Assembly: GCF_011064285.1 (NCBI RefSeq)
Contig: NZ_CP049331.1
Location: 1,550,001 to 1,614,000 of the forward strand
Length of the DNA stretch: 64,000 nt
Source of the DNA: Vibrio ziniensis
Lineage (GTDB): Bacteria; Pseudomonadota; Gammaproteobacteria; Enterobacterales; Vibrionaceae
Reading direction: 5' to 3'
In this document: in pieces, positions 5,909 to 19,451 of the stretch
Layout: the number at the start of each line of letters is the position of its first letter
How positions within the stretch are numbered: the stretch's first letter is position 1
Notes under the pieces: model-generated
What the model was told of the DNA's origin: nothing
What the model saw: only the letters and a program-made list of their open reading frames with translations
Database searches by the model: none
Position numbers and translations under genes: made by a program

Positions 5909-6226
5909 ATGTTGTACGTAATTGTAATCGCGGCTGTAATCATTTTTTGGCTTGTCGCTGTTGATCGACCTGTTCTCAAAGTAATCTTTAAAGACGGCAC
6001 CTTACATAAAGTTAAGGGGCATTTTCCGCCAACGTTTAAACACAATGTGTCAGAGATTGCTGAAGTAACACCTTTTAGCGGAGAAATGAAGGTATATCAG
6101 CAACGAACAGGAATGAAATTAGTATTTACTGAGCAAGTGCCTAAAAAAGTTCAACAGAGAATTCGCAACGTATTTCCGCATCAAGGATTTAAGAGTTCGG
6201 GCGACAAGACAAAAAAGAATCGCTGA
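5909..6226 (+). CDS. DUF3634 family small membrane-anchored protein
   Basis: A 105-aa protein starting 10 bases after matP, with AGGAG before the ATG, so it is probably co-transcribed. Residues 2-17 (LYVIVIAAVIIFWLVA) form one N-terminal membrane segment. The rest is a basic soluble domain (VIFKDGTLHKVKGHFPPTF) ending in a Lys/Arg-rich tail. This layout matches the DUF3634 family found after matP in vibrios. The function is unknown. Confidence 0.75.
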   Translation: MLYVIVIAAVIIFWLVAVDRPVLKVIFKDGTLHKVKGHFPPTFKHNVSEIAEVTPFSGEMKVYQQRTGMKLVFTEQVPKKVQQRIRNVFPHQGFKSSGDKTKKNR

Positions 6227-6245
6227 ATAGTACATTCGATTAGCA

Positions 6246-6304
6246 TAGTGTTAATAGTGTTAATAGTGTTAATAGTGTTAATAGTGTTAATAGTGTTAAT
6301 AGTG
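6246..6304 (+). repeat. Tandem array of the 9-bp unit TTAATAGTG
   Basis: Six identical head-to-tail copies of TTAATAGTG occupy 6251-6304, preceded by a partial copy (TAGTG). The array sits 20 bases after the DUF3634 stop and about 235 bases before the left prophage attachment site. There are no spacers, so it is a simple microsatellite rather than a CRISPR. Confidence 0.95.
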
Positions 6305-6351
6305 TTAGAAGTTAGCGCATAGGAATCTGTTGCCGCAAGCTCGCAGTTGAA

Positions 6352-6513
6352 ATGAAACTTACGCTAGAGAAAGATCAGCAAGCATACGCAGCAGGAATTT
6401 ACACACCGCACAGTTCAAGTTATGCCATAAACAACTTTGGCGGCTTAGAGTTAAAGCGTTTTGGAATGGTTCTGGACGCAATAGACATCAAACAACAAGA
6501 TATAAGACGCTAA
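6352..6513 (+). CDS. Possible 53-aa hypothetical ORF
   Basis: An uninterrupted 54-codon frame runs from ATG at 6352 to TAA at 6513, beginning MKLTLEKDQQ and ending QQDIRR. There is no clear Shine-Dalgarno sequence and I recognise no family. It fills most of the otherwise empty stretch between the tandem repeat and the prophage, ending 27 bases before attL. It may be a real small gene, a remnant of an older insertion, or chance. Confidence 0.25.
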   Translation: MKLTLEKDQQAYAAGIYTPHSSSYAINNFGGLELKRFGMVLDAIDIKQQDIRR

Positions 6514-6540
6514 ATCAACGCCTTATCTTTATCATATCTA

Positions 6541-6569
6541 AGTGCGCATTATGTCGAATTACGGTAAAT
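6541..6569 (+). other. attL: left dif/phage hybrid site
   Basis: AGTGCGCATTA (6541-6551) is identical to the XerC arm of the Vibrio chromosome 1 dif. It is followed by a phage-type centre TGTCGAA and a degenerate XerD arm TTACGGTAAAT. The chromosomal XerC arm joined to non-chromosomal centre and XerD arm is the expected left product of XerC-mediated insertion of a VGJ-type inovirus. Confidence 0.82.
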
Positions 6570-6636
6570 TTCCTATATTTAACAAATAGATACAGAATGT
6601 CATTTTTATGCACTAGAATCATCTTGAGGTCTAGTC

Positions 6637-7008
6637 ATGCATAAAAACAGACTTTTTCGTGAATTCGAATGTGGGTTAAGTGTCGAAGAAACAGCTGAAT
6701 TGTGTTTCAAAAGTGCGAGGACTGTCACTGATTGGGATAAAGGAAATATCATTCCTCCAGAATGTAAAAGACTGATGCGTTTCGCAAAATGTCGGCAGAT
6801 CAGCCATCACGAGTCGTGGCAACAGTTCAAAATGGTGCGCGATAAACTCGAACTTCCCACCGGTCAACTTGTCTCTCCCCAACAGATTGTCATCGGCATT
6901 GCACTGCTCGAAATCCAGTCTGAACTAGAGCTTAAAACTACACGTAAGCTGATCCGATTTGCGCGGGTGTTAGCTAAGATGCTACATAATTCCAAGGCAC
7001 CTAGATAA
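6637..7008 (+). CDS. DUF3653-like phage regulator, copy 1
   Basis: A 123-aa protein with an HTH-like segment (ECGLSVEETAELCFKSARTVTDWDKG, residues about 10-36) and a conserved LPTGQLVSPQQI block. It resembles the small DUF3653/Vpf122-type proteins of Vibrio filamentous phages. It lies 68 bases inside attL. In the circular phage the upstream DUF3693 frame would run through attP and end over this start codon (ATGCATAA). It is clearly homologous to the gene at 10202 (RLFRE.ECGLS.EETA.LC.K pattern) but diverged. A regulatory role is inferred from the HTH and family context. Confidence 0.65.
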   Translation: MHKNRLFREFECGLSVEETAELCFKSARTVTDWDKGNIIPPECKRLMRFAKCRQISHHESWQQFKMVRDKLELPTGQLVSPQQIVIGIALLEIQSELELKTTRKLIRFARVLAKMLHNSKAPR

Positions 7009-7313
7009 ACACATCAAATATCACAACAAATAGAGGCGCAATTGTTTATCGTAAACTAGATTCTGCCCCATTGTATGCTACGCAATGTTTCAGGACTCGT
7101 TTCATTTGTCATTAATTGAATTATTTTTGGTAATACTAAAAACGATAACCTTGTCCAGATTGTTTTCGGCTTCCTAAAGTGAATATTCAGCATCCAACCG
7201 ATAATCGAGTATCGTGGATTGCCTAGCGTATGTGTCGTGCAACTGACGTGGAAAACTTATAGCGCTCCTGCAATAATTGTTTTTTGTATGTCTTCTGGGG
7301 AAAGTTGTAAACG
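7009..7313. other. Intergenic region between DUF3653 copy 1 and the XRE gene
   Basis: About 300 bases of A/T-rich sequence with no credible ORF. A GGGGAAAG Shine-Dalgarno lies just before the XRE start codon at 7314. No dif-like word or clear hairpin was found. Confidence 0.5.
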
Positions 7314-7865
7314 ATGGTAAATCAAGAACTAATCAAAAAGCTTCGTTCTGGAAAGTTCTGGTCTCAGGAGCAATTGGCATTCATTGCAGGGATAAGCCTT
7401 CGAACAATTCAAAGAATAGAGAGTGAAGGTAAGTGTTCGTTAGAATCAAAGAAAGCTATTGCAGCTGCTTTTGAAGTCGATGTTGCTGAATTAAGTGTTG
7501 AATCAGAATCAGCGATTTTAGATGTAAATGATAGTAGAAAAGAAGATGCTATATCATGGTTAGAGACCGTTGATTTAGGTGAGTATGCCTTAAGTTGGAG
7601 TGAGGCTGCTCCTGTATTTCAAGAAAGAATATCAAGTTCCAAATGGAAAAGAATGCTCACCCAAATACGCGCACCTTTAGGACAAATTATTTCTCGTTCA
7701 GTTAAGAGAGCATCTGAACACAACTCTCTTCCTGGAGTTGCCGATGGTCAGTATCTTGTTATCAATTTTGCAGCAAGTTTTGGTCAAAAAAGCTCGGCTA
7801 TAGAAACTGTAACGTTGCAGAAAGTAGCAAACAAATGGCGAGTGGCAGGATATTTCATTAAATGA
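7314..7865 (+). CDS. XRE-type HTH regulator with C-terminal DUF4019
   Basis: A 183-aa protein. Residues 1-55 form a helix-turn-helix (LIKKLRSGKFWSQEQLAFIAG / SLRTIQRIESEGKCSLES). Residues about 80-183 match the DUF4019 pattern: a WLE..DLGEYALSWSEAA start, SSKWKRMLTQIRAPLG, and an end in VTLQKVANKWRVAGYFIK. It has a strong GGGGAAAG ribosome binding site. It lies just before the oppositely oriented AIPR gene, so the two are convergent. It may control cargo expression, but nothing here shows its target. Confidence 0.75.
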   Translation: MVNQELIKKLRSGKFWSQEQLAFIAGISLRTIQRIESEGKCSLESKKAIAAAFEVDVAELSVESESAILDVNDSRKEDAISWLETVDLGEYALSWSEAAPVFQERISSSKWKRMLTQIRAPLGQIISRSVKRASEHNSLPGVADGQYLVINFAASFGQKSSAIETVTLQKVANKWRVAGYFIK

Positions 7866-8049
7866 GGAATCAAAAATGCGAATAGTCCAATCAATAAACA
7901 AAGATAGTTTATGCACCTTAAAAGTTTTTGCTGACATCTAAATGCCCCAAAGTGAGTTACCAGCGACATCAAAGTAAATAGTAAAATTGGGATTATGAAA
8001 TACTTTAACTAATGGTAAGAAAACTTGGTACTATGGCTTATTCAAATTT

Positions 8050-8079
8050 AAATAGGGAGTCGTTAATCTCTCCCTATTT
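8050..8079 (-). terminator. Hairpin at the 3' end of the AIPR gene
   Basis: AAATAGGGAG and CTCCCTATTT form a perfect 10-bp stem around a 10-base loop, 20 bases beyond the AIPR stop codon. It probably terminates the minus-strand AIPR transcript and may also block readthrough from the convergent XRE gene. Confidence 0.75.
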
Positions 8080-8099
8080 AACAGTTCTTAAAAATTATA

Positions 8100-9809
8100 C
8101 TAACATACGCCTAATTGCTCATTAAGAAAATCTTTAAAACGGACTTGGATCATTTTACGAGCATCTGTAATCTTTTTCTTAGACGGCTCAAACAGCTCTA
8201 GTATACGTTCAAGTTCATCAATACACGCCTGATTATCAAGATCACTACGAACTTTTCTCATATATAGTATGTAGAATACTTTTTGTTCAATCTTCTGTAG
8301 ACTTTCCTTTACTGAGTCATATGATTTTTTAATGTCAAAGTAGCTTTCTATAATCTCTGGTGCATCAGATATATTGAAATTTCTTTCCGAGAAGATGTCG
8401 TCATAATACTTACCAAAGATATGTTGTTTTTGGTTAGATGATTTTTCAGGATTACCTTGAATTGCAAACAGTATCTGTCCAAATAACTCCATGCTAATTT
8501 TGTATTTGTAATTTTTTTGATCATTCATGCCAGTATCACCATTCTTTCTTGAATAGATAATGTCATGTTCATCCAAAAGTTGTTCTAGTTGAATTTGTAG
8601 AGTACTCAAAGACTTTAAATCTACATTTGAGATTGAGTTTTGGCTATTAGTGTATTCTGCGATTTTGTTAACGGCATCACTATTTGAGGCATTGAATATT
8701 CTAACTAAGACTTCGCTTTTAGATAAAAACTCAGATATATGAGAATCATCTTGAGCATTGAAATTATGAAGCGTTCGGAGCGTTTGACCTCCATTTAGCA
8801 CTTGGAAGTCACTGATGGAAATTCTTACTTTTTTGTTACCATTAACAGGCTCTGCTTTAATATCTTTAGCAACAATTGTCATGCCATTGTTATACATGAA
8901 GAACTTGCTAGGATCTTCTTTTAGAGAACGCGCTATGGCTTCATTGTATTTTGATTTTTGAACAAAGCCTCGAACATTGTCGAATAAAACTCCATAGTCT
9001 ATGCGCTCTTTAGCTAAAACTTCAATTTTCTCGCAATTGTAGTTATTTCTTAGCTCTTGATTTTTACATGTTATTCTAATTATATCTGCCGCATTTAATC
9101 TTACTATATATGACTTTGATGTTGAGATGGTGTTTTCCGAATAAGACATTAAAGCGTCATTGTCGATTATAAGCTCTGAAGATATTGGCTTTGGCCGAAT
9201 AGACATCATTGATTTAATTTGAGGAAGACAGATGGAAATAACTTCCATATCATAAAAGTCTTTCAGTTGCTGAATAGCTGTCTCATCATTATTTATTGGA
9301 ACTGCTTCATTGCTAAGCATATAAAGAGAGGTCTTCCAGACATCATTACTATTGAGTCTTTCTATCGCGTCATCAACTAAACTCTTTAACTTTCCCTCTA
9401 GACCGTCGGAATTCCCATTCAAGATACAATTTACTAGTTTCGTTGAAACAAAAGCTTCATTTGAACTTTGCATCTGACCTGGTTTAAATGATTCTCTAAA
9501 CTTAAAGTTGAAGAGTAATATTTCTTTACTTTCATCATTAATATAAATCGCATCAATACCTTGGTCATTAAATCGATTACCCGTTAGGTATGCGTTGTAT
9601 TCAGTATCAGTGATAATATCACTGATACGATCAAGATCTTTCTCATCACACAAACTTTCAAGCATGAACAGGTAAAAACCAAACCGTTCCTTTAGCTTGT
9701 CATTCTCGGGTTGCTTAGCAAAGACAGCGCCTTTTGAGTAAAGGTCAAAGTACTTTTTACATTTAATATTTAATAACTTGAAATCGTTTAAACTAGCAGC
9801 ACCAGACAT
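8100..9809 (-). CDS. AIPR family abortive-infection protein
   Basis: A 569-aa protein matching the AIPR (abortive infection phage resistance) family. The N-terminal part has a restriction-like YLTGNRFNDQGIDAIYIND segment, in which the acidic and Lys/Phe residues of IDAIYI...ILLFNFKFR resemble a PD-(D/E)xK core. The central hallmark is KFFMYNNGMTIVAKDI followed by FQVLNGGQTLRTLHN. AGAGG precedes the ATG. The sequence is visibly more A/T-rich than the phage core, consistent with separate acquisition. Family members are linked to phage defence; the target and trigger are unknown here. It lies between two DUF3653 copies inside the prophage. Confidence 0.87.
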   Translation of the reverse strand: MSGAASLNDFKLLNIKCKKYFDLYSKGAVFAKQPENDKLKERFGFYLFMLESLCDEKDLDRISDIITDTEYNAYLTGNRFNDQGIDAIYINDESKEILLFNFKFRESFKPGQMQSSNEAFVSTKLVNCILNGNSDGLEGKLKSLVDDAIERLNSNDVWKTSLYMLSNEAVPINNDETAIQQLKDFYDMEVISICLPQIKSMMSIRPKPISSELIIDNDALMSYSENTISTSKSYIVRLNAADIIRITCKNQELRNNYNCEKIEVLAKERIDYGVLFDNVRGFVQKSKYNEAIARSLKEDPSKFFMYNNGMTIVAKDIKAEPVNGNKKVRISISDFQVLNGGQTLRTLHNFNAQDDSHISEFLSKSEVLVRIFNASNSDAVNKIAEYTNSQNSISNVDLKSLSTLQIQLEQLLDEHDIIYSRKNGDTGMNDQKNYKYKISMELFGQILFAIQGNPEKSSNQKQHIFGKYYDDIFSERNFNISDAPEIIESYFDIKKSYDSVKESLQKIEQKVFYILYMRKVRSDLDNQACIDELERILELFEPSKKKITDARKMIQVRFKDFLNEQLGVC

Positions 9810-10201
9810 AGAACCTCTAAACTAATGATTTTTCATGGCAATATCATTGTTGCATATCATGGTGAGCAAAAAAAGTATGACTTTAGGTTTGTTGATTCGT
9901 TTTAAAAGTATGTATTACGCTTTTGGTGATCAAGATCATAAACTGTATTTTTCTCGCTGTTTCCCTAACTAAATCTAATTCGAAGGTACATACCGAGATT
10001 GCCAACCTTAACTCGAAATTGTCCAGAGACGTGTTACATGTCCATGGGGACAATGCTGTCATATGGATAATAAAGCAGGAAGCGTTTATTGCCACTAAGC
10101 TATATGTGAATTTACTCGCATTAGATTGTTCATTTAACTATATGTAATTGCGAAGAATTGAGGGTTATCGGTATAACGCATATCTTTTAAACGCGCAGTT
10201 A
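9810..10201. other. 392-base non-coding stretch between AIPR and DUF3653 copy 2
   Basis: No gene can be supported. Two overlapping open frames of 70 and 74 codons on opposite strands lack ribosome binding sites and recognisable composition. The region should hold the AIPR promoter. A weak half-match to a XerC arm (CGCATTA) occurs at 10117-10123, but the XerD half is not recognisable. Confidence 0.5.
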
Positions 10202-10582
10202 ATGAAACGTCCACGTTATACAAAAAACCAACTCTTTCGTGAAATTGAATGCGGTCTCTCAATTGAAGAGACCGCTGATCTCTGTTGTAAGCATATCAAT
10301 ACTGTGAAAGCATGGGACAGAGGGCGTGAAATGCCTGAATGCTGTCGTCGATTAATGCGGCTTAACACAGGAAGAGTTATCAGCCACAAGAAGAACTGGG
10401 AAGATTTCAAAATATCCCATGATCATATCGTTACACCAACTGGTGAAACTATCACTCCTCAACAAATCCTCTTGGCTCAAGCTCTTATGTACGGTCAGGA
10501 TAAAGAAACCCTCCAAACAAGTTCAAAGTTGTTAAGGTTAGCTAGAGCTGTAGCGAAAATCTTAGTATTAGAGAGGCGCTAA
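10202..10582 (+). CDS. DUF3653-like phage regulator, copy 2
   Basis: A 126-aa protein starting MKRPRYTKNQLFREIECG. It has the same HTH-like core as copy 1 (IEETADLCCKHINTVKAWDRG) and the same PTGETITPQQI block. A longer frame upstream from 10148 lacks conservation. It is convergent with the Doc/cPP/phage operon, the place where Vf33/VGJ-type phages keep a reverse-oriented regulator, so this copy probably belongs to the phage proper. The exact function is unproven. Confidence 0.65.
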   Translation: MKRPRYTKNQLFREIECGLSIEETADLCCKHINTVKAWDRGREMPECCRRLMRLNTGRVISHKKNWEDFKISHDHIVTPTGETITPQQILLAQALMYGQDKETLQTSSKLLRLARAVAKILVLERR

Positions 10583-10623
10583 ACGTCCTCAAAACAGAGA
10601 ACGCCGATAGTTCGGTGGAATTT

Positions 10624-10652
10624 ACCCCCGTAATACAGATTCGGGGGTTTTG
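10624..10652 (+). terminator. Terminator after DUF3653 copy 2
   Basis: ACCCCCG and CGGGGGT form a G/C-rich stem around a 12-base loop, followed by TTTTG. It lies 41 bases past the DUF3653 stop. Confidence 0.8.
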
Positions 10653-10912
10653 CCTTTCCTTCAAGCGCATCACGTTTGTGCGTGCGCTCGTTCCGAGCAC
10701 ACACTCAACCGTAATTGCGCTTTATTAGTCAGACGGAAAGCCGCTATACGTATGCTGCAAAGCTATGAGCAATTTTGGGCGTTTTAGGTGATTAGGTCGT
10801 TTGGCTTAGCAGGAAGAGGGAATTTGATGCCATAAGAATATTTGGGAAGCTCCGCGCCATTTAACGACACGAGACACTCAGCTTTAGTGTGGGCTTGGTG
10901 TCTCGGTCGCGT

Positions 10913-10939
10913 AAAACGCTCCCTTATCCCTTCGGGGCG
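10913..10939 (-). terminator. Candidate terminator of the Doc/phage transcript
   Basis: On the minus strand CGCCCC pairs imperfectly with GGGAGCG and is followed by TTTTA. It lies directly after the Doc-like stop codon. Confidence 0.5.
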
Positions 10940-10942
10940 TAC

Positions 10943-11692
10943 TTAGATAGTAGCTAAATCACGCATCACTTTAGCTCTCATGGTCATGAACATATGTAAT
11001 GTATCGTTAAATCCTGCAGCGCCATAAAAACCAAAAGAATCCACTCCAAATTCGTGCGTTAAATCTAATTTTTTCCGCAGCTTCTGAATGTATTGCTTAT
11101 CGTAATCCTCTTTACCTTTGCTCCCTTTTTGCAAGATGGATGTTTTTAATACGCCATCCTTATAAATAGGTATAGTTCTACCGTCACATTCCCCCACGTC
11201 ATAACCAAATCTAACAAGGATTTCTCTCAACTGCTGAAATTTAAGAGGATGTTCACCATTAGTTCGTCTTCGAGAGTTTTTCTTCAGCCATGTTGCTATC
11301 GACTTTAGTTCGTTATCACGACTACATCCTAACTCATGAGCAGCTGCTTTACGTGTAAACTCAAACATTTCAGAGTCTGTAGGAATGGTTAACCAGTAAC
11401 CGTGTTCGCTCATGTAGACAATAGTGGAGAGGAGTGCTGTGCGCTTGTTGCCATTGTGGAAACAGTGGTTGTTGATAATAGAATGAAACAGAGCAGCACA
11501 TTTGTTATACACACCTATGTAAGCGTCTTTTCCGCCAGCCGTCATAAGTGGTCTGCAAACTGCTGATTCTAGTAGTTCTTCGCTTTTAATACCGGCAGGG
11601 GAAATAGGATCATCTCTATTGGCGAAGTATTCAACTAAGTATCCATGTATGTATTTAATTTCTTCAATTTTCATAAAAGTCCATTTGCTCAT
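10943..11692 (-). CDS. Doc/Fic-domain protein with C-terminal extension
   Basis: A 249-aa protein with an N-terminal death-on-curing (Doc/Fic) domain. The core motif HCFHNGNKRTAL is the Doc-type HxFx(D/N)xNKRTAL; the Lys replaces the Gly of AMPylating Fic enzymes, as in the Doc kinase that phosphorylates EF-Tu. Residues about 145-249 form an extension I do not recognise with certainty (KFQQLREILVRFGYDV looks HicA-like). An alternative start at MKIEEIKYIHGYLV (11674) gives the usual Doc N-terminus. No Phd-type antitoxin gene is adjacent; the neighbour upstream is the cPP gene. Whether it is toxic is not known. Confidence 0.75.
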   Translation of the reverse strand: MSKWTFMKIEEIKYIHGYLVEYFANRDDPISPAGIKSEELLESAVCRPLMTAGGKDAYIGVYNKCAALFHSIINNHCFHNGNKRTALLSTIVYMSEHGYWLTIPTDSEMFEFTRKAAAHELGCSRDNELKSIATWLKKNSRRRTNGEHPLKFQQLREILVRFGYDVGECDGRTIPIYKDGVLKTSILQKGSKGKEDYDKQYIQKLRKKLDLTHEFGVDSFGFYGAAGFNDTLHMFMTMRAKVMRDLATI

Positions 11693-11769
11693 TTTTCATA
11701 CTTTAGCAAAAGCTATTATATTTGAACGACCAAATGGAACAATCATAATTTTCAATAAAAACAAATAAT

Positions 11770-12075
11770 TCAAACAATTCTTCGATGTTTTGACATACGG
11801 TAGATTTGGTCGATTCCTTGTTCCATTTTACGTCTAGCGGATATATTAGCGGAATGAACTTTAAGCCTTGGTGGCTCAAAATTATTCAAGACCATTTGTT
11901 TTTCAATCCACAAAATAACATCATATCCAGTCCCTTTGCGGTCATCACCTAAGTCGTGATCAAGACTGATTTCTGTAACCTTGCCATCCGTTAGCATTGA
12001 AATAACTTCATTAGGCCAATAAGCACGAACCCAGCCTTCTGGAGTTGTACGTTCATCATCTAAATATACTTTCAT
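11770..12075 (-). CDS. Cyclic-phosphate processing (cPP) receiver-like protein
   Basis: A 101-aa single-domain protein. The pattern VYLDDERTTPEGW at the N-terminus, ISLDHDLGDDRKGTGYDV in the middle and VHSANISARRKMEQGI near the end matches the cPP receiver-domain family. Comparative genomics has linked that family to processing of cyclic-phosphate or ADP-ribose-type ends in RNA repair and conflict systems. It is encoded on the same strand as and 77 bases upstream of the Doc-like gene, so the two may form a cargo unit. The biochemical role is inferred from the family. Confidence 0.75.
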   Translation of the reverse strand: MKVYLDDERTTPEGWVRAYWPNEVISMLTDGKVTEISLDHDLGDDRKGTGYDVILWIEKQMVLNNFEPPRLKVHSANISARRKMEQGIDQIYRMSKHRRIV

Positions 12076-12193
12076 GATAAACCCCTAATCATGACTACGA
12101 AATCCAAACTTTCGCCAAACAACTTACATAAACAACACTAGACTATCGACACATAATTATCGAGACTAATGTAACAATTTTAGAAACAACATG

Positions 12194-12226
12194 GTCTTAT
12201 ATGTACAATTAAACGTACAGTAAGAC
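12194..12226. promoter_or_regulatory. Imperfect palindrome between the phage secretin and the cPP gene
   Basis: GTCTTATATGTAC and GTACAGTAAGAC are inverted copies separated by eight bases, with no T-tract on either strand. The site is upstream of the minus-strand cPP gene. It could be an operator or an mRNA hairpin separating cargo from the phage operon. Confidence 0.35.
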
Positions 12227-12309
12227 GATTCAAGTACCGAGATGACTTTATATGTTTAATTATTAATCGTTCTGGGTCAATAGAATTTCGGAAAAAGGTC
12301 AAAGATTAA

Positions 12310-13497
12310 TCAAATTGCCACAACATGTAGAACTACATCCAATGTCCGGTTACTGCTTTTCTCCGATTCAGAACGAAACAAAACGCCTAGGTACGGGATG
12401 TCACCAAGCACCGGTACTTTCATTGTCACGGTTTGTGAGTCTCTCGCCATCATGCCGCCTAGTGCGATGGTTTGACCGGATTTGATCGTGAGAACGGTAT
12501 CTATTTGTCGCTTGCTCGTGACAATGTCACTGGCTTCCACAGATTTATCAACACGACTAAGCTCTTGTTTTACCCTGAGTTTAATATCCCCATTCAAACC
12601 AATCATAGGCTGGACCCAAAGCGATAAGCCTACATCTTTACGTTCAATCGTCTGAAACGGTTTACTGCTTCCATCAGTTTCTGTGGTGTACGAGCCGGTG
12701 ATGATAGGCAGCTCCTGACCAACACTAATCAAGCCACTGTGACCGTGCAAGATGCTGATTTCAGGGCGGCTCAATATCTCGGTTTTGTCATTGGACTCAA
12801 TCCAACGCACAAACGCATTAAAATCGTCATTGGTTGCGGTGAAATTAGGAGAGCCGGTTAAGAACGCAATGGCTGAACCATCAAACGCCGTCTTAATTGC
12901 ACCCGCACCGGCAGCGAGATTGACCGTTAAATCTCGTAAATCACCGTCTACCGTTTCCACAATCACAGCGCGTATCTTCACTTGTTTAAGTGGTTTGTCG
13001 ACCGTATCGATGAACTCGACAATGTCACTGTGCATCGATTTAGGCGCGGTGATCATCAGTGCAGAGCCTGCAATGATACTGTCTACATTGGTTACATCAG
13101 GCACATCGAGCACGGACGATTGAACAACGAGGGACTTTCTCAGCGGTTCAAGTAAATCATCAGCAGTCAGATAGAGCAGCTTATAGGTGCGCGTGATGAT
13201 TTCATTGCCGCCAGTGAGTTTGTTGCGCTTGTCTACGCGAATGACCGAACCCGATTCGATGTAAGTGAGGCTGTGAGCGCGCATAACGCTGAACCACACA
13301 TCACGAAAGTTCGCCGCGCCCGAGGCTTGATAGAGCTTCAAGTCACCGTTCACTGACGGGTCAACGATGATGGTCTTATCAAACACTTTGCTTGAGATAA
13401 TAAAGAACTCATTGAGCGTCTTACCGGCAAGGTTGGCTTCAAAGGCAAAGGCTCGGGAAGCGAGGCACAGCAAGGCGAGGGCAAGGATGCGTTTCAT
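12310..13497 (-). CDS. Inovirus secretin (pIV/GspD-like)
   Basis: A 395-aa outer-membrane secretin through which filamentous virions leave the cell. It has a signal peptide MKRILALALLCLASRAFA, an N-domain (EFFIISSKVFDKTIIVDPSV) and a C-terminal secretin domain (ILSRPEISILHGHSGLISVGQELP; QTIALGGMMARDSQ; VPVLGDIPYLGVLFRSE). Its start overlaps the Zot stop codon (TAATG), so translation is coupled. Many Vibrio inoviruses such as CTX borrow the host EpsD secretin, so carrying one is notable. A perfect matS word lies within the gene at 12518. Confidence 0.92.
   Translation of the reverse strand: MKRILALALLCLASRAFAFEANLAGKTLNEFFIISSKVFDKTIIVDPSVNGDLKLYQASGAANFRDVWFSVMRAHSLTYIESGSVIRVDKRNKLTGGNEIITRTYKLLYLTADDLLEPLRKSLVVQSSVLDVPDVTNVDSIIAGSALMITAPKSMHSDIVEFIDTVDKPLKQVKIRAVIVETVDGDLRDLTVNLAAGAGAIKTAFDGSAIAFLTGSPNFTATNDDFNAFVRWIESNDKTEILSRPEISILHGHSGLISVGQELPIITGSYTTETDGSSKPFQTIERKDVGLSLWVQPMIGLNGDIKLRVKQELSRVDKSVEASDIVTSKRQIDTVLTIKSGQTIALGGMMARDSQTVTMKVPVLGDIPYLGVLFRSESEKSSNRTLDVVLHVVAI
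12518..12530. promoter_or_regulatory. Perfect matS word inside the prophage secretin gene
   Basis: GTGACAATGTCAC matches the MatP-binding consensus GTGACRNYGTCAC at every position. It lies within phage rather than chromosomal sequence. Confidence 0.7.
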
Positions 13498-14825
13498 TAA
13501 TAGAGCCCACCTTTGTTAAGCACGACATTGTCACCATTAGAGCGAGTTTGAGCGGTTTTACGGCGCTGATGGTTATCGCTTGAGACTTCAAACGGGTCAA
13601 AATACCCATAGCGGGCGATATTAAAACAGGCATGATCTTCCAATGCGTAGGCGGTGCCTTGCTGGGTAAAACAACTGCATTCATCATGCATAATCACACA
13701 AGTCAGCTCGGGATAATGGTTGGCTTCGTGCGTTAGTCCGTCATACACCGGTGCTGAAAAAGGTAGGGCATCGAGCCTTGGCAGAAATCTTTCTAGATAC
13801 ACTGTATTTATATCCAGTATTTTTGTTTCTTCCGTATTTTCGGCACTTTCAATGGTTGAAACCTCGCTCTGAACCACTTCAACAGATGCCGGTGTGACCT
13901 GTTTTTGAAACCACGAATAGAGGTAGAACGCCGCCGCGCTGATACCTAAAATGCCGACCGTTAAGCCGATGATGCCTTTCTTTAACTGCGGGTCGATTTT
14001 GACCTTTTGCGTGTGCTTGATGGAGCTGAGATAGACGCCATAGTATTTGTTATCGCGTTTGACTTTCTCTTTCTCAGCCTTGGCTAGTTCCGTCTTGTTG
14101 GCAGGGTCAAAGCCTTCGATGTGGAAATATCGATGCAGCCAATCACCGCCGATGAATTCGTAATGGACGTAATACTGCATACGCCGGCGGATGATTTGGT
14201 CAACATCTTTAAAGTCTTGGGAGATGTAGACTAAATCAATGCCTTTGTGCCGGTGTGTGGTTACGAACTTCACATCAGGCGACATGGCTTTACCCGCCGT
14301 TCTGTTGCCCCATATGTTCTGCACTTCATCAACCAGAATCACCGAACCGGCAGGCAGCGTGTGGATCTCTGTGGGATCATCAAACGCCGTCCAAGACAGG
14401 TTCAAGTGTTTAATGTCCTGATAGGTGATGGATTCTTCATCAAGTTCAAGCACCGCTAACGCTTCTTTAAATGCGGCGAGGCGCTTAGGGGATGCCAGTT
14501 TCTTAAACCAGTGCATCCACTGTTTGAACGGCTCATGTTTCTTGTAGTGAAACGCCAAATAGGGAAAGTCTTCGAGTGTCGCCAGACGTTGCTCGGTTTC
14601 AATGCGCAGCAGCTTTGATTCCAGCTCTTTGTTGTGACTGTTGGCAGGAAAATAGACGCCATAGAGCCAGCCTTGAAAACTGTTACACACCTTGTAATCG
14701 AGAAGCATCACGCGAATGCCGTGATAGTACACAGGACGGTCGGCAAAGTTGTCGTTCTCGATGATAAACTTGATGGCGTTAAGGCTTTTGCCTGTTCCCA
14801 TCCCGCCACTGAAACCGTGCAACAT
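13497..14825 (-). CDS. zot: Zot-family inovirus assembly ATPase (pI-like)
   Basis: A 442-aa inner-membrane morphogenesis protein. Walker A is GFSGGMGTGKSLNAI at residues about 4-18 and Walker B is GSVILVDEVQNIWG. A single membrane segment (GIIGLTVGILGISAAAFYLYSWF) lies near residue 280, and a periplasmic C-terminal domain carries Cys residues (CVIMHDECSCF). The architecture is that of phage pI/Zot, which couples ATP hydrolysis to extrusion of the virion through the secretin encoded next to it. The Zot name reflects homology; no toxin activity is implied. Confidence 0.93.
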   Translation of the reverse strand: MLHGFSGGMGTGKSLNAIKFIIENDNFADRPVYYHGIRVMLLDYKVCNSFQGWLYGVYFPANSHNKELESKLLRIETEQRLATLEDFPYLAFHYKKHEPFKQWMHWFKKLASPKRLAAFKEALAVLELDEESITYQDIKHLNLSWTAFDDPTEIHTLPAGSVILVDEVQNIWGNRTAGKAMSPDVKFVTTHRHKGIDLVYISQDFKDVDQIIRRRMQYYVHYEFIGGDWLHRYFHIEGFDPANKTELAKAEKEKVKRDNKYYGVYLSSIKHTQKVKIDPQLKKGIIGLTVGILGISAAAFYLYSWFQKQVTPASVEVVQSEVSTIESAENTEETKILDINTVYLERFLPRLDALPFSAPVYDGLTHEANHYPELTCVIMHDECSCFTQQGTAYALEDHACFNIARYGYFDPFEVSSDNHQRRKTAQTRSNGDNVVLNKGGLY

Positions 14826-14837
14826 TGCTTTTGCTCC

Positions 14838-15167
14838 TTATGCAGGGTCAACCGGTTTGCGCCACGATGGACGATAGCCGGTCGCCGACATTAAGCCGTT
14901 CAACGTAAACGAGAACACCACACAGGTGAGCACTACATTGATGTAGGTATCGACGCCCGCCATGCCCATCAGTGCCGCGAGTTTGGGTGTCACGCCGTTC
15001 ATGTTCGACTGTATGTAGTCGGCGATCGAATCGATCGCCATTGAAACACCGGTGTAAGCCACAAGAGAGAAACCAACCGAAAGCGCCACATAGGTGGCGA
15101 GTCCTTTAGCCAAACTTGGAATGAGTGGAACCAACACAGTGGCTAAAAATCCAATAAAATACTGCAT
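14838..15167 (-). CDS. DUF2523 family minor coat protein (pVI-like)
   Basis: A 109-aa, highly hydrophobic protein with about three membrane segments (MQYFIGFLATVLVPLIPSL; ATYVALSVGFSLVAYTG; INVVLTCVVFSFTLNGLM) ending in a basic tail (GYRPSWRKPVDPA). It sits between the adsorption protein and zot, the conserved place for the pVI-type virion end protein. It follows the adsorption gene by one base. Confidence 0.82.
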   Translation of the reverse strand: MQYFIGFLATVLVPLIPSLAKGLATYVALSVGFSLVAYTGVSMAIDSIADYIQSNMNGVTPKLAALMGMAGVDTYINVVLTCVVFSFTLNGLMSATGYRPSWRKPVDPA

Positions 15168-15168
15168 A

Positions 15169-16653
15169 TTAAACGGCTCCTTGTGTGCGACCGATGATGA
15201 ACAATCCCGTTAACCAGGCGAACGCGATAAGTAGGGGTCTTAACAATTCGGCGTAACGACAAGCGGGATCAAACTTAAATTCGATGGATTTGGATTCACC
15301 AAAGGCGCGAAACGAAATTCGCTCAGGTGCAGGACAGCCGCCGCCTCCAAAAGAAACGCCGCCGCTGAGGTACTTTTGATTCATGCGTGAGTAATCAACG
15401 GTGTCGCTCTGCACCAACAGCGTTTCATTGTTGAGTAACTTGATGCCTTTAAACGCCTCTTCCAGTTGCACCAGTTCGTCAGCCGTGCATGTGTTGTCGT
15501 ACTGAACTTTGAGCAGGGCACATTGAATGACATCGCCGCGACACTCAAAGATAGACTTGTCACAATCGGCTCTCGCCATCGGCTTTGTCGTAGGTTTACC
15601 GTCGTTTCCTATTTCATTCGGGATCACCACTTTAGTTCGGCTCAGTGACTCAAGCATTTCTCGCAGTACACCCAATTGATGTTGGGAGAACTCATTGCCT
15701 CGCGCCAGTTGATCAAGCAATTGACCACCGAGGTTTTTGAGATTGGCGTTCACATTGCCCAAATGCTGATTAGTGACCGAGATTTCTTGCACAATCTCGC
15801 TGTCACCCGCCGATAATGTGGAGTTGATTGGCGGCTTTCTCACGGGATTGGGATTGGGCTCAGCGCGGTTTACTGGAGGTTGCTGCTTCTCACACAACTG
15901 CGGATTCATATCACAAAAGCTAGGAATGTTTTCGACCGTATCGTAGGTGCTGCCACCGATGGGCGGCAAGTCTGACGGAGTGGTGCTCTGCGGGGGAAGT
16001 TCACACTCCTCTTTACTGGGATCACAATAGGGTAAATCATTGTCGCTTTTACAACTCAAGCCAACAATACAGTTATTGGGGTTATAGTGACAACTTGATG
16101 ACATGGTTGGAGATTCTCCCTCAACGTCCTCACACGACCAACGGTAATCGGTATTCCACAATTGGCTATTAGGGTTATTTATCTGGCACACATACTGTGC
16201 TTGCTGAAATTCCTTTTGTATGTCCGAATCGGCACAGGTTGGAATAGGGGGATCACACGACGTATTGGGAAACGTAGGTACTTGATCCGACTTGCAATTT
16301 TGCGCGGATTTTCTATTGATGAGCTGCCAGCGGGCGAATCGAATGGAGGCAGAAAACTTGCCCCAATAAAACTTCATTTGGTAAAGATCAGAAGTAAATT
16401 CAACATGATAGGTTTCGGGACTCGGTAGTGTCAGTGATTCATATATTTGGCTTTTGCATTGCTCCTTCAACGCCTCCGTAGCCGTTTCCTCTTCGGTAAT
16501 GATAAGGCAATCACGGTAGTCTTCGGTCTTCAGTATCCAAGTGGCCTTAACTTCTAATGCCGTGCAAATCGGTGTCCAGACTAGGAGTGCAGCACAAATA
16601 AGCCGAGTAAAAATACGCAAATGACATACATTTCTAACGTCATAATGAACCAT
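15169..16653 (-). CDS. Inovirus adsorption / minor coat protein (pIII-like)
   Basis: A 494-aa exported protein with a signal peptide near residues 12-33 (LRIFTRLICAALLVWTPICTA). The Cys-rich middle section contains many CxxxxxxC pairs and a Pro/Asn-rich linker (PNPNPVRKPPINSTL). A C-terminal membrane anchor (LLRPLLIAFAWLTGLFIIG) follows. By position and layout it is the host-attachment protein. Its N-terminal part is expected to set receptor choice and cannot be assigned by similarity here. AAGAGGG precedes the start. The hairpin at 16675 sits between it and the coat gene. Confidence 0.8.
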   Translation of the reverse strand: MVHYDVRNVCHLRIFTRLICAALLVWTPICTALEVKATWILKTEDYRDCLIITEEETATEALKEQCKSQIYESLTLPSPETYHVEFTSDLYQMKFYWGKFSASIRFARWQLINRKSAQNCKSDQVPTFPNTSCDPPIPTCADSDIQKEFQQAQYVCQINNPNSQLWNTDYRWSCEDVEGESPTMSSSCHYNPNNCIVGLSCKSDNDLPYCDPSKEECELPPQSTTPSDLPPIGGSTYDTVENIPSFCDMNPQLCEKQQPPVNRAEPNPNPVRKPPINSTLSAGDSEIVQEISVTNQHLGNVNANLKNLGGQLLDQLARGNEFSQHQLGVLREMLESLSRTKVVIPNEIGNDGKPTTKPMARADCDKSIFECRGDVIQCALLKVQYDNTCTADELVQLEEAFKGIKLLNNETLLVQSDTVDYSRMNQKYLSGGVSFGGGGCPAPERISFRAFGESKSIEFKFDPACRYAELLRPLLIAFAWLTGLFIIGRTQGAV

Positions 16654-16674
16654 CCTTAAACCCTCTTAATTGAT

Positions 16675-16701
16675 CAAAAAAGGGCTGAGTAAACAGCCCT
16701 T
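16675..16701 (-). terminator. Terminator after the major coat gene
   Basis: On the minus strand AAGGGCTG and CAGCCCTT enclose a short loop and run into TTTTTT. A partial terminator just after the coat gene is a known way for filamentous phages to make coat mRNA more abundant than pIII mRNA. Confidence 0.88.
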
Positions 16702-16723
16702 GAATTAGCAAGCAAAGGCGCCA

Positions 16724-16921
16724 TTAACCACCGATTTTGCCCCACGCTTTTTTAGCAATGGTCAACAACAGATAAGCACCGCCAAGCGTACCAATCACTA
16801 CACCAAATTCACCAATACTCGCCACCGCACCTGTGACATCGGGTGCCGCAGCTGAAGCCGCACCTGAAACCAAAGCCAAAGACACAGCGGAGACAACACT
16901 TGTTACATTCAACGTTTTCAT
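16724..16921 (-). CDS. Inovirus major coat protein (pVIII-like)
   Basis: A 65-aa precursor. The signal peptide MKTLNVTSVVSAVSLALVSG ends with a likely cleavage ASA^AAPDVTG. The mature part of about 40 residues has an acidic/neutral N-terminus, a hydrophobic helix (VVIGTLGGAYLLLTIA) and a basic DNA-facing C-terminus (KKAWGKIGG). This is the classic major capsid layout of filamentous phage. AAAAGGAAAA precedes the start. Confidence 0.92.
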   Translation of the reverse strand: MKTLNVTSVVSAVSLALVSGAASAAAPDVTGAVASIGEFGVVIGTLGGAYLLLTIAKKAWGKIGG

Positions 16922-16936
16922 AAAATGTTTTCCTTT

Positions 16937-17137
16937 TTAGTGGTGGAGAACCTTCTTCCAACACCAACAGAGGGCAAGAAACAATACTGTTTCAGGCATG
17001 ACCTGTTTGAGTTGGTCGAGGGTCATATAAGGCGGCGCCAGTTGAGTGGAGATCTCTTCCAACGTCACCAAACGATAGCCACTTGAGCAATCGGGATACT
17101 CACAAGTGATAATGTAAGTTCCTGAATTTTGACTCAT
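16937..17137 (-). CDS. Small inovirus membrane protein
   Basis: A 66-aa protein with a soluble N-terminus containing Cys residues (CEYPDCSSGYRL) and a C-terminal membrane segment (PETVLFLALCWCW) with a short basic tail. The start codon overlaps the stop of the preceding ssDNA-binding gene (TAATG). Position suggests a pVII/pIX-type minor coat or assembly protein, but similarity is not strong enough to choose. Confidence 0.6.
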   Translation of the reverse strand: MSQNSGTYIITCEYPDCSSGYRLVTLEEISTQLAPPYMTLDQLKQVMPETVLFLALCWCWKKVLHH

Positions 17138-17490
17138 TATTTGGTCATGCCTGATGCTTTAAAGTGGGCTTTGATTTCATCATCAATCGGGATCAACTCC
17201 GTTACGATAGCGCCCGATAATGGGTCGGTCGGGTTGATTTCCATCTTGAGTTCGTATTCACGACGCGGAACTAACGCGCCAGTTTTTTCCAGTTTCAGCG
17301 CGTACTGATAATCGAGCTGAATAGGGTGGTCAAACTGCGGATTGACATCGCCCGACTCACCTAATGTGCGGCGTTTGAACTTCTCGACGTTGATTTCACG
17401 CAGTGGACGCGAGATATTGAGCTGAGCACCATCCCCCCGAAAACTGTTCCAGATGATGTCCACGCCTAACACAAATACACCTTTACTCAT
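17137..17490 (-). CDS. Phage ssDNA-binding protein (pV-like)
   Basis: A 117-aa protein starting MSKGVFVLGVDIIWNSF, with GGAG upstream. A GTG three codons earlier is less likely because it overlaps the rep stop region. It follows rep by two bases and precedes the coat genes, the fixed place of the gene V-type protein that coats new single strands and switches replication to packaging. The call rests mainly on position and size. Confidence 0.7.
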   Translation of the reverse strand: MSKGVFVLGVDIIWNSFRGDGAQLNISRPLREINVEKFKRRTLGESGDVNPQFDHPIQLDYQYALKLEKTGALVPRREYELKMEINPTDPLSGAIVTELIPIDDEIKAHFKASGMTK

Positions 17491-17492
17491 GA

Positions 17493-18632
17493 TTAACACT
17501 CCAATGGGTCTGAGACAGACCGGTTCGTAATGGACTGGATTAACGCCGCATACGTATCAGGGAAGCGGAACTTGCGTCCGTCCCGTTGCAATAATCCAAT
17601 GACCTTGGGAATATCGCCGTCGAATTCTTCAATCAGCGCGTTAAGGATCTTTCCGTACTGGCGACGCATCCAATAGGCAGCACTTAACACATCACACGCG
17701 ACACGCTTTTCAGGCTGAGGCTTGGTATTAAAGACGGGAGTACTGCTTATCGATGCACTAAAAGCGTTCAATGCCGCAAAGGCGCCGTCAGGATTTAATA
17801 GGGCGTCGATGTCCCATTTTTTTAGCTCACACTCGGTGCGATACCAAACCATGCCGTTCTGAGCGAGATTCTGTTCAAGGGCTTTGTTGTAAATACGCCA
17901 GTAAATGCGAGAAGTTCGGGAGCCGACGGTGACCATTTCTTGGCTGTAGTGCTTAGTGCCGTTTTCACCAAAACGGTACTTGTGGTTTTCATTCACTGTC
18001 GGTGAAACGCCTCGGGAGGCGGTACGAAACGCATCTTCATAAGCGGCTTTGAGCGCGTAGTTACAATCGAACAAACCGTGATAATCGTCGAACGCCAAAT
18101 CCAGACGCGCCAGCTGTTTGATACCTAACACGTTAGACAACCAACCGTGGAGCTCCCAAGCCGGCAGCTTGGTAAACACGTGTTTGCAGCCGGTGCCGTT
18201 AATCTGAAAATGCACTGTGTCTTGGTTGCCACCGATCCCCACGAAACCGCAAAAGTCTTCGCCATCGGCGGTGGTGAGTTTCATCGATTCGGTGTAGAAC
18301 TGAAAACCAAATCCACGTGGTGCCGTCATGGTTAAACCGAGTACGTGCGTGGTAAACAATCGAAGGCAACGTTCTAAATACTCGGTGTACTGCGCTCGGA
18401 AAAATTCACGATACGTTTCAATGTCGTCGGCGCTGTGCGCACGAAAGTCGGTGAGAAATACCGGCTCTTGTGGAAAAAGGCGCGCTAACGGATTTATCAT
18501 TACCGTATTACGCCGTAACTTTTTCATTACTTTCGGATCGTGTTCATGAGTATCCATGAAAGTGGCGCGTCCACAGTGGCGTAAATCTTTGACTTTGAAG
18601 GTGAAACAGAGGTAATCAATACTGACAGCCAT
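17493..18632 (-). CDS. Phage replication initiation protein (pII/RstA-like)
   Basis: A 379-aa rolling-circle initiator. The N-terminus MAVSIDYLCFTFKVKDL, the LARLDLAFDDYHGLFDC segment and the conserved Tyr-containing TSRIYWRIYNKALEQN / MVWYRTECELKKWDI region match the phage replication initiation factor family (Rep_trans type) of Vibrio inoviruses. It would nick the plus origin, possibly in the intergenic region at 10583-10942. Its start overlaps the end of the preceding small ORF by 17 bases, implying coupled translation. The divergent DUF3693 repressor probably controls the promoter at 18835-18961. Confidence 0.87.
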   Translation of the reverse strand: MAVSIDYLCFTFKVKDLRHCGRATFMDTHEHDPKVMKKLRRNTVMINPLARLFPQEPVFLTDFRAHSADDIETYREFFRAQYTEYLERCLRLFTTHVLGLTMTAPRGFGFQFYTESMKLTTADGEDFCGFVGIGGNQDTVHFQINGTGCKHVFTKLPAWELHGWLSNVLGIKQLARLDLAFDDYHGLFDCNYALKAAYEDAFRTASRGVSPTVNENHKYRFGENGTKHYSQEMVTVGSRTSRIYWRIYNKALEQNLAQNGMVWYRTECELKKWDIDALLNPDGAFAALNAFSASISSTPVFNTKPQPEKRVACDVLSAAYWMRRQYGKILNALIEEFDGDIPKVIGLLQRDGRKFRFPDTYAALIQSITNRSVSDPLEC

Positions 18633-18834
18633 CGAATACCCCCAAGTTCATCCGCTGTTGAGCGGTCGTGTTGGTGATGTCAACCAACTCATACTGCGTC
18701 ACTTCCGCATCAGCCCAAGCGCACAAGTGATTCATACTACGAAATACATCCCATTCGGTTGAGCCGTACACCAGTACGGACACCGAATAATCGGGCAGCA
18801 AGTCGTAGTAGATCTTCGTCGTGTGCTTGAGCAT
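18616..18834 (-). CDS. Small phage protein at the start of the rep operon
   Basis: A 72-aa hypothetical protein (start MLKHTTKIYYDLLPDYSVSV, end LGVFDGCQY), the first gene of the minus-strand phage operon. It overlaps rep by 17 bases. I recognise no domain. Small ORFs in this place are common in Vibrio inoviruses. Confidence 0.6.
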   Translation of the reverse strand: MLKHTTKIYYDLLPDYSVSVLVYGSTEWDVFRSMNHLCAWADAEVTQYELVDITNTTAQQRMNLGVFDGCQY

Positions 18835-18961
18835 TTATCGGATCGCTGCCTATAATCAGAGTGGTCAGGAATTGGCTAGAGCTTAGTAACCAAATATGGT
18901 GAATGCAAGACTCACAAAATACTGATTTTTAGCCTGTAATGACAAAAACGGAGAATGTGTG
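18835..18961. promoter_or_regulatory. Divergent control region between rep operon and DUF3693 repressor
   Basis: A 127-base gap between outward-facing phage transcripts. It should contain the rep promoter and the repressor's operator. A GGAG Shine-Dalgarno for the repressor lies at 18950. No operator repeat is obvious by eye. Confidence 0.5.
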
Positions 18962-19330
18962 ATGTACCAAAACTTACTAATTGAAGCCTATAAAAAGGCT
19001 CAAAACTACCAACAAGACCAACAGATTGCAGTGGATTTGGACATTCCTAAGCAGCGAATCAGTGATTTCCGCAAAGGAAAGCGTTATATGTCTGATGAAC
19101 AAGCAATTTTTCTCGCAGAAAAAACAAAAATAGCCCCAGAACTGGCACTCATTGGTTGTCACGTTGACCGCAGCAAAAGTGTGATCTCAAAGGAGGTCTG
19201 GGAGCGCATGGCAAAAAAGTTCAGTAAGTATGGATTACAAAGATTTTCAATGAGTTATGGAGCAATTGTTATGGGATATGGTGTATTTCAACAATCTATT
19301 AATGACTACGTATTATGTATGTTATGTTAA
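18962..19330 (+). CDS. DUF3693 phage repressor-like protein, 3' end formed by dif
   Basis: A 122-aa protein with an N-terminal XRE-like HTH (AVDLDIPKQRISDFRKGKRYMSDEQAIFLAEK) and the DUF3693 C-terminal pattern (SVISKEVWERMAKKFSKYG). The ATG at 18962 has GGAG eight bases upstream. A GTG one codon earlier is possible. It is divergent from rep, like RstR-type repressors. The last codons (VLCMLC) are read from the dif site at 19305-19332, so the C-terminus depends on integration. In the circular phage the frame would run about 29 codons beyond Cys119. Confidence 0.8.
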   Translation: MYQNLLIEAYKKAQNYQQDQQIAVDLDIPKQRISDFRKGKRYMSDEQAIFLAEKTKIAPELALIGCHVDRSKSVISKEVWERMAKKFSKYGLQRFSMSYGAIVMGYGVFQQSINDYVLCMLC

Positions 19331-19332
19331 AT
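19305..19332 (+). other. dif: attR / regenerated dif site of chromosome 1
   Basis: A phage-type XerC arm ACTACGTATTA is followed by the chromosomal centre TGTATG and a perfect Vibrio XerD arm TTATGTTAAAT. This keeps the 28-base, 11-6-11 layout of Vibrio dif1. It is probably the working dif site after prophage insertion, although its XerC arm departs from the usual AGTGCGCATTA at four positions. Confidence 0.85.
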
Positions 19333-19404
19333 TATATTATTATGAGCCTACAGTTATACTCATCTCTTTTAGTGTTTTACATAATGGGTATTTACCATAA
19401 AATA

Positions 19405-19451
19405 CCTAATAACTACATTTATAATCACTGTTTATAAATGTAGTTATTAGG
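19405..19451 (-). terminator. Perfect 20-bp inverted repeat at the vpsS 3' end
   Basis: CCTAATAACTACATTTATAA and its exact complement enclose a 7-base loop. The repeat covers the vpsS stop codon and is followed on the minus strand by a modest T-rich stretch. It probably acts as the vpsS terminator, although a 20-bp perfect A/T-rich stem reaching into the coding end is unusual. Confidence 0.6.

Follow-up and report, generated by a model that had tools for sequence, protein, structure and literature searches.

Integration at dif may uncouple a DUF3653 gene from the repressor cistron of a Vibrio filamentous prophage

The window, that is the whole 64,000-nucleotide stretch of DNA analysed here, carries a Vibrio inovirus of the VGJ type, and its integration at dif is rather likely to uncouple a DUF3653 gene from the repressor cistron to which, in the circular phage, it would be bound by translational coupling across attP. 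This uncoupling is favoured over a sensor based on the C-terminal tail that the repressor loses on integration. The prophage and its borders are the following:

6552..19318: whole filamentous (inovirus) prophage of about 12.8 kb at the dif site of chromosome 1, recognised by coat B, Zot/pI, secretin and Rep and by its att ends
6541..6569, plus strand: attL, with host XerC arm (6541-6551), 7-bp phage-type centre (6552-6558) and phage XerD arm (6559-6569), from the dif scan
19305..19332, plus strand: attR, with phage XerC arm (19305-19315), dif-type 6-bp centre (19316-19321) and host XerD arm (19322-19332)
17493..18632, minus strand: replication initiation protein (Rep_trans; Pfam 8.5e-20, phrog_453 1e-110), on the strand opposite to the repressor

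The left site reads AGTGCGCATTA/TGTCGAA/TTACGGTAAAT and the right one ACTACGTATTA/TGTATG/TTATGTTAAAT, with the core ATTATGT common to both (6548-6554 and 19312-19318). In the dif scan they are the top two dif-like sites of the window, with 2 and 3 mismatches against 6 for the next best, and the rebuilt attP is a single dif-like site of 11+7+11 bp, as expected of a VGJ-type Xer-integrating inovirus. The inovirus core genes (Rep_trans, coat, Zot/pI and a divergent regulator) are recognised by Pfam and PHROGs, and no phage-encoded integrase is found among the 10 window proteins (part of the ORFs) scanned in each of these searches. The minus strand carries the genes for coat, Zot/pI, secretin and Rep, and the plus strand those for the DUF3693 repressor and DUF3653, at opposite ends of the prophage; once joined in the circle these two would be neighbours, in the order repressor, attP, DUF3653.

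A second DUF3653 gene (10148-10582, ATG 10199) lies within this prophage, some 3.2 kb beyond the first, and an alternative attP before it was considered and rejected: the best site there (10113) is weak and in Vibrio sp. Y2-5, which likewise has a DUF3653 pair, 929 bp apart, attL precedes the first copy, and therefore the att pair 6541-6569/19305-19332 stands. Fusion of two phages may be the origin of this prophage. Pfam identifies cargo in the stretch from the first DUF3653 gene to the secretin gene, namely an AIPR (abortive-infection-type) gene (8100-9809) and a Fic/Doc gene (10943-11692), and positions 7314-7865 encode a protein with an HTH and DUF4019 (Pfam DUF4019 4e-30). Near dif and just beyond attL, at 6236-6312, a repeat finder reports a 9-bp unit (ATAGTGTTA) in tandem, in seven registers, and just beyond attR a 23-bp inverted repeat, 96% complementary and terminator-like on the minus strand, spans 19405-19451; Rfam gives no match within 6000-20000.

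The elements of the regulatory region are the following:

18959..19330, plus strand: DUF3693/HTH repressor in its prophage form, 123 aa from GTG 18959 or 122 from ATG 18962, with its last residues MLC derived from host dif
18827..18856, plus strand: candidate sigma-70 promoter before the repressor (TTGAGC-18-TATAAT, 10/12 matches), weak evidence from a consensus scan whose site count in the region is not above that of shuffles
6555..6644, plus strand: continuation of the repressor frame in the circular form (attP), 29 codons plus stop, with an orthologous open tail in Vibrio sp. Y2-5
6637..7008, plus strand: DUF3653-type HTH-like protein of 123 aa (phrog_1668 1.8e-51), which begins within the final codons of the extended repressor frame (ATGCATAA)
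6603..6647, plus strand: predicted RNA hairpin at the DUF3653 start, with TTGAGG in its apical part and a 3'-arm bulge that contains part of the ATG

The repressor matches Pfam DUF3693 at residues 64-120 (8e-9), HTH_3 just below the cut-off (6e-4) and phrog_638, a transcriptional regulator (1e-34), and a fold search with the extended form returns XRE/lambda-type HTH proteins at E 0.08 or worse. As a sequence-only reading of this DNA had proposed, the gene runs into the attachment site, since the ORF from 18959 or 18962 to 19330 enters attR, which gives the prophage repressor its stop (TAA 19328-19330, within the XerD arm of dif). The same reading had assigned the final VLCMLC-stop to chromosomal dif; this is correct for MLC-stop (19319-19330) and not for VLC, which consists of phage XerC arm plus the shared core. 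When the join from 19318 to 6555 is recomputed, VLC is followed by RITVNFLYLTNRYRMSFLCTRIILRSSHA and a stop, and the frame stays open for the 29 additional codons anticipated, up to TAA 6642-6644; the circular form thus has 149 codons from GTG 18959 or 148 from ATG 18962, versus 123/122 in the prophage.

The two forms expected, of about 148 and 122 aa, are both found in sequence records. The extended one needs no join in eight free-phage records, seven of which annotate it, and measures 154 aa in VGJ, VFJ, VCY and fs1, 150 aa in VP24 and 148 aa in Vf33, VfO3K6 and Vaf1. In prophages the short form predominates: dif-type ends (L-C/W/G-stop at 112-126 aa) occur in 170 of 262 repressor matches with more than 60 aligned residues each, matches that are not all independent because the loci come from overlapping scans and duplicated record ends. 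Exceptions among the free phages are VEJ, whose stop at codon 99 precedes att (98 aa), and VSKK (113 aa) and one VK05K4_2 copy (111 aa), both with early frame breaks; in VK04M1 and VK05K4 the repressor length varies via frame changes. Where records are cut from prophages, the short form gets annotated as the phage gene. Five PQ189 phage records that were examined are apparently cut at gene borders, with attP not seen. Annotation is also in conflict, as a DUF3693 gene (L156 9295-9663) is labelled antirepressor in MT188665 and, in the available text of PMC10790759, ORF9 of f237, the DUF3653-side gene, is labelled repressor by analogy and ORF10 unknown.

The openness of the extended frame was surveyed across relatives. 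Att junctions beside a DUF3653 gene are present in 73 of the 262 matches, the other 189 being dropped (135 without attR and 54 without attL near DUF3653), and the distinct junctions are 43, of which 39 have a 7-bp centre and four an 8-bp centre, the allowed centres being 6-8 bp in direct junctions and 7-8 bp in rejoined ones. Four joins obtained by a looser rule (L029, L035, L040 and L148) were left out because their left site is unconvincing; L139, whose junction is direct, with a centre of 8 bp and no anchor, is outside the junction counts, and L074, whose repressor is 99% identical, covers the second DUF3653 gene onward and is outside the tail comparison. In 34 of the 39 7-bp-centre junctions (13 direct and 21 rejoined from attL and attR) the repressor frame has no stop between att and the first DUF3653 start position, versus 6 and 3 junctions for the other two frames; among clusters below 80% identity the corresponding figures are 20/25 versus 4 and 3, and a 17-codon frame of the same composition would be open by chance in about 27% of cases. 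The five closed junctions are VSKK, L024 (of which L085 is a copy), L051, L054 and L073, and in L051 a 5-nt overlap remains with the start given by tblastn instead of the anchor. All four 8-bp-centre junctions are closed, namely L047, L055, L071 (Photobacterium) and L152 (viral contig); the tail is closed in L139, also a viral contig, too, and in all five DUF3653 is more distant as well. The closest relative usable at both prophage ends, Vibrio sp. Y2-5 (L021, L276), has a repressor 95% identical, an attL built alike, with TGTCCCG as its centre, and a tail that is open over an equal length, and the repressor frame is without stops in both tails versus 1-3 stops in the other frames.

In contrast to the frame, the amino acids of the tail vary freely, and no selection on them is detectable by pN/pS in Vibrio phages, in samples so short that weak constraint is possible. 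In 11 disjoint pairs drawn from 28 same-length junctions the tail has a pN/pS of 0.87 (bootstrap 0.60-1.29), no different from the other two frames of the same region (0.86 and 1.08), versus 0.56 for the adjoining repressor codons (core) and 0.22 for DUF3653, and the median of a neutral simulation in which stops are forbidden is 0.91 (0.67-1.32; earlier set of 9 pairs). Between the window and Y2-5 the identities are 114/119 for the repressor, 100/123 for DUF3653 and 12/24 aa for the tail, with pN/pS of 0.08, 0.17 and 1.20, respectively. Given a conserved frame and a freely varying peptide, selection seems to keep the tail frame open and not its amino acids; conservation of the extension codons in free phages, on which the sequence-only reading had staked its proposal, is thus seen at the level of the frame and fails at that of the peptide. 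Two roles for the tail were also considered and rejected: a degron, as 0/36 listed forms end in AA or ALA (ssrA-like) and the window form ends in SHA, and a membrane segment, as the Kyte-Doolittle maximum is 0.89 in the window and up to 2.3 in some relatives, with no consistent segment. In the AlphaFold model of a 154-aa form the tail has pLDDT 45-54, which adds little because confidence has already dropped by about residue 91, ahead of att, and the tail is covered by just 4 of the 62 alignment rows.

Inovirus regulators that contain attP and are cut when the phage integrates have been published before, for Ralstonia phage phiRSS0 (2013, where the hypothesis is the same) and for Xanthomonas phage XacF1 (2014, 2017). 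In phiRSS0, as far as the available text goes, attP lies inside the regulator ORF13, which acquires a new stop on integration and passes from 156 to 130 aa, and the two forms may differ in function (Yamada 2013, PMC3816273). Like the window phage, phiRSS0 is an inovirus with attP (dif) in the 3' end of an HTH regulator and relies on host XerCD, and the shortening amounts to 26 aa in both (149 to 123 in the window phage); in contrast, coupling to DUF3653 is absent from the available part of its description, on which the comparison is based. In XacF1, attP is located in ORF12, which is split on integration, with the suggestion that its function may be affected, and the ORF12 region matches the Cf immunity determinant (available text of PMC4076744 and PMC5666396); moreover, prophages lose stability when the 5' part of ORF12 is deleted (available text of PMC5666396). 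XacF1, Cf1c and phiXv2 resemble the window phage in having attP within the regulator and a next gene that overlaps the regulator end by 4 nt. In particular, cp8 of Cf1c is a DUF3693 protein (5e-14) with attP at codon 138, and cp7, which overlaps it by 4 nt, is DUF3653-like (4.5e-4, just below the Pfam cut-off); therefore, the arrangement is common to the Vibrio and the Xanthomonas cases, although the Xanthomonas phages have a different host and a tail that looks conserved (3 compared).

Other systems are related in part. Mycobacteriophage BPs, with its integration-dependent immunity, is the proven case of a state-dependent repressor; according to the available text of PMC4557955 it has attP within the repressor gene and, like the window phage, a shorter repressor in the prophage, integration truncating the C-terminus from 136 to 103 aa; unlike the window phage, it has its own integrase and a tail that is an ssrA-like degradation tag. 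VGJ shares with the window phage a 29-bp dif-like attP contained in a DUF3693 gene (ORF154, 154 aa) that overlaps ORF136; the available part of a review (PMC4246890) describes its integration as XerC-mediated and reversible and its attP as agreeing with dif in its XerC half, with the differences located in the part of the centre that adjoins the XerD arm, and does not discuss truncation of the repressor. According to the available text of PMC7412436, integration of the Vibrio anguillarum phage VAI at dif-like sites changes the end of ORF9 in frame, with altered function suggested, as for the window repressor; unlike the latter, ORF9 becomes longer on integration and is a hypothetical protein, not the RstR-like ORF11. 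The additions of the present analysis are the Vibrio-phage survey, the contrast between conserved frame and free peptide and the predicted hairpins, for which no paper was found in the open-licence literature; a search of the same literature found nothing on DUF3693, on the VGJ ORF154 attP or on translational coupling at a filamentous-phage attP.

These comparisons bear on the possibility that the tail itself alters the repressor, so that the long free-phage and the short prophage forms differ in activity, stability or partners, an idea that the available text of Yamada 2013 (PMC3816273) gives as hypothesis 1 for phiRSS0. Both forms do exist, in BPs the short one is active and the long one degraded (available text of PMC4557955), and the shortened ORF13 of phiRSS0, the unstable prophages of XacF1 lacking the 5' part of ORF12 and the likeness of the tails of Cf1c, phiXv2 and phiLf all point the same way. 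For the Vibrio phages such an effect is nevertheless unlikely, in view of a tail free of detectable amino-acid constraint, the complete lack of ssrA-like ends among the listed forms, the absence of a tail in L024, L073 and the 8-bp-centre relatives and, as a weak argument, the low pLDDT of the modelled tail. Of the built-in lysogeny sensor put forward by the sequence-only reading, the two forms and the overlap geometry are borne out; the tail-dependent repressor activity that it implied is not what the Vibrio sequences show, since the tail amino acids are not conserved, and tandem copies keep the extended frame. In fact, in the tandem arrays L037, L088 and L117 the upstream copy, at the inner junction, retains the extended frame, and in the tandem prophages found at a dif-like site of the organism's own chromosome 2 (L019, 1091500-1111400) the inner long-frame repressor copy stops at codon 12 and the outer one ends at dif. 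With the long frame retained at an inner tandem junction, what the device would sense is the surroundings of attP and not integration as such.

The gene that follows attP has a product that is HTH-like by prediction. The protein encoded at 6637 has no Pfam match, its relatives (the 10148 gene, VGJ and Cf1c) match Pfam DUF3653, and the PHROGs label of phrog_1668, 'tail assembly protein', is unfitting. Its AlphaFold model (pLDDT 82, pTM 0.45) has no Foldseek match at E<=0.001, the top-ranked structures being mostly weak XRE/lambda-type HTH hits, and the sequence has no match in the PDB. In the circle the TAA 6642-6644 of the extended frame overlaps the ATG at 6637, an overlap that, as foreseen, is lost in the single-copy prophage, and a consensus scan, which is weak evidence, finds no promoter match on the plus strand of 6200-6700.

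The start of DUF3653 is also the site of predicted hairpins. Over the 45 nt that lead up to the first DUF3653 start position, 29 of 32 7-bp-centre leaders have z below -2 against shuffles (median -3.3), and the three non-significant leaders (window, L019 and L028) have their start 15 nt further on; at the real starts the window alone becomes significant, given that the first codons are included, and L019 and L028 stay non-significant. In particular, the window hairpin has -14.0 kcal/mol and z -2.5 for the segment from -45 to +15, z -0.8 when the fold ends at the ATG, and z of about +1.0 at the position standard for the other leaders. RNAalifold on a MAFFT alignment of the leaders gives no consensus structure, the stems being in different registers, and for this reason they were compared one by one: in 19 of 24 clusters there is a stem of 6 bp or more in which each position shows several pair types, and 16 of these 19 have a purine-rich Shine-Dalgarno-like motif in the 3' arm by a permissive motif test, and shuffled leaders match the real stem strength in 4.1 of 24 clusters on average. 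Examples are L034 (GATACTCTTG-TTTT-TGAGAGTATC) and L093 (GTATCTCTCG-TTTC-TGAGAGATAT), whose Shine-Dalgarno-like purines lie in the 3' arm, a few nt upstream of the start; in Y2-5 a hairpin is predicted over GGGAG at the DUF3653 start (no shuffle control). The hairpin is present in L024, L054 and L073 despite the earlier stop of the repressor frame, and the 8-bp-centre leaders have z of 0.0, -3.6, -2.0 and -1.9; because closed-frame leaders and part of the 8-bp-centre ones retain it, its role may be a different one.

The whole arrangement could also be passive, that is, the outcome of a compact phage genome in which attP occupies the dispensable 3' end of the repressor gene, the overlap reflects compaction and the dif stop leaves a working repressor, with no switch. 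VEJ, VSKK (as sequenced) and the 8-bp-centre relatives in fact manage without the extension, the DUF3693 match stops at residue 120, at the att core, and a stop from dif falling in the repressor frame has a one-in-three chance. This account is improbable, however, as the same order recurs in Xanthomonas, with attP also in the regulator of Ralstonia phiRSS0 by published description, and neither a frame kept open over diverged sequence (34/39 versus 6 and 3) nor hairpins at the DUF3653 start would be expected of an idle spacer. Some insertion sequences hide a ribosome-binding site on read-through transcripts by means of a hairpin, and it is very unlikely that the hairpin acts in much this way as an insulator, masking the ribosome-binding site of DUF3653 when host transcription runs through dif into the prophage, with the open repressor frame as the circular phage's way round. 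In its favour, the prophage retains the hairpin next to DUF3653 at attL, and relatives with a closed frame have it too; this account in any case overlaps the favoured explanation rather than excluding it.

Uncoupling of DUF3653 by integration would operate as follows. With attP near the 3' end of the repressor cistron, inside what would be a two-gene regulatory unit (DUF3693 repressor, attP, DUF3653), ribosomes finishing the repressor on the circle or at an inner tandem junction would read on through about 30-40 tail codons, whose amino-acid sequence would hardly be important, and halt just past the DUF3653 start. In most relatives the Shine-Dalgarno sequence of DUF3653 lies inside the predicted hairpin, and therefore passing ribosomes would open the hairpin and with it the start. 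Exchange at dif replaces the tail with about three residues (usually x-L-C) and the built-in TAA of dif and puts DUF3653 at the other prophage end, far from the promoter and the ribosomes of the repressor; with the tail replaced and DUF3653 moved away, integration would most likely switch off or sharply lower DUF3653, leaving the DNA-binding part of the repressor unchanged, and excision would re-establish the link. A lysogeny sensor that works by way of DUF3653 is possible, provided that the coupling operates and that DUF3653 takes part in the switch. Counting against uncoupling are the window's own leader with its non-significant fold at the standard position, the hairpins kept in closed-frame leaders, the lack of an RNAalifold consensus, VEJ, which exists as a phage despite its stop before att, the 8-bp-centre phages without overlap, and the Xanthomonas tails, which, unlike those of Vibrio, look conserved in three phages and are hydrophobic in Cf1c.

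In a wider and more tentative reading, which is possible though rather doubtful, Xer recombination at dif would be a switch on translation and not on repressor structure, in which a ribosome relay through attP unmasks the DUF3653 start and integration cuts the relay, the same device being used by Vibrio and Xanthomonas inoviruses and perhaps in Ralstonia; if so, ribosomes would read the state of the phage from DNA topology. The question bears on how dif-integrating filamentous phages, some of which help to move toxin genes, tell the prophage from the replicating state. At least in Vibrio phages, the C-terminal tail lost on integration need not matter as protein, which tempers a reading that has been in print since 2013.
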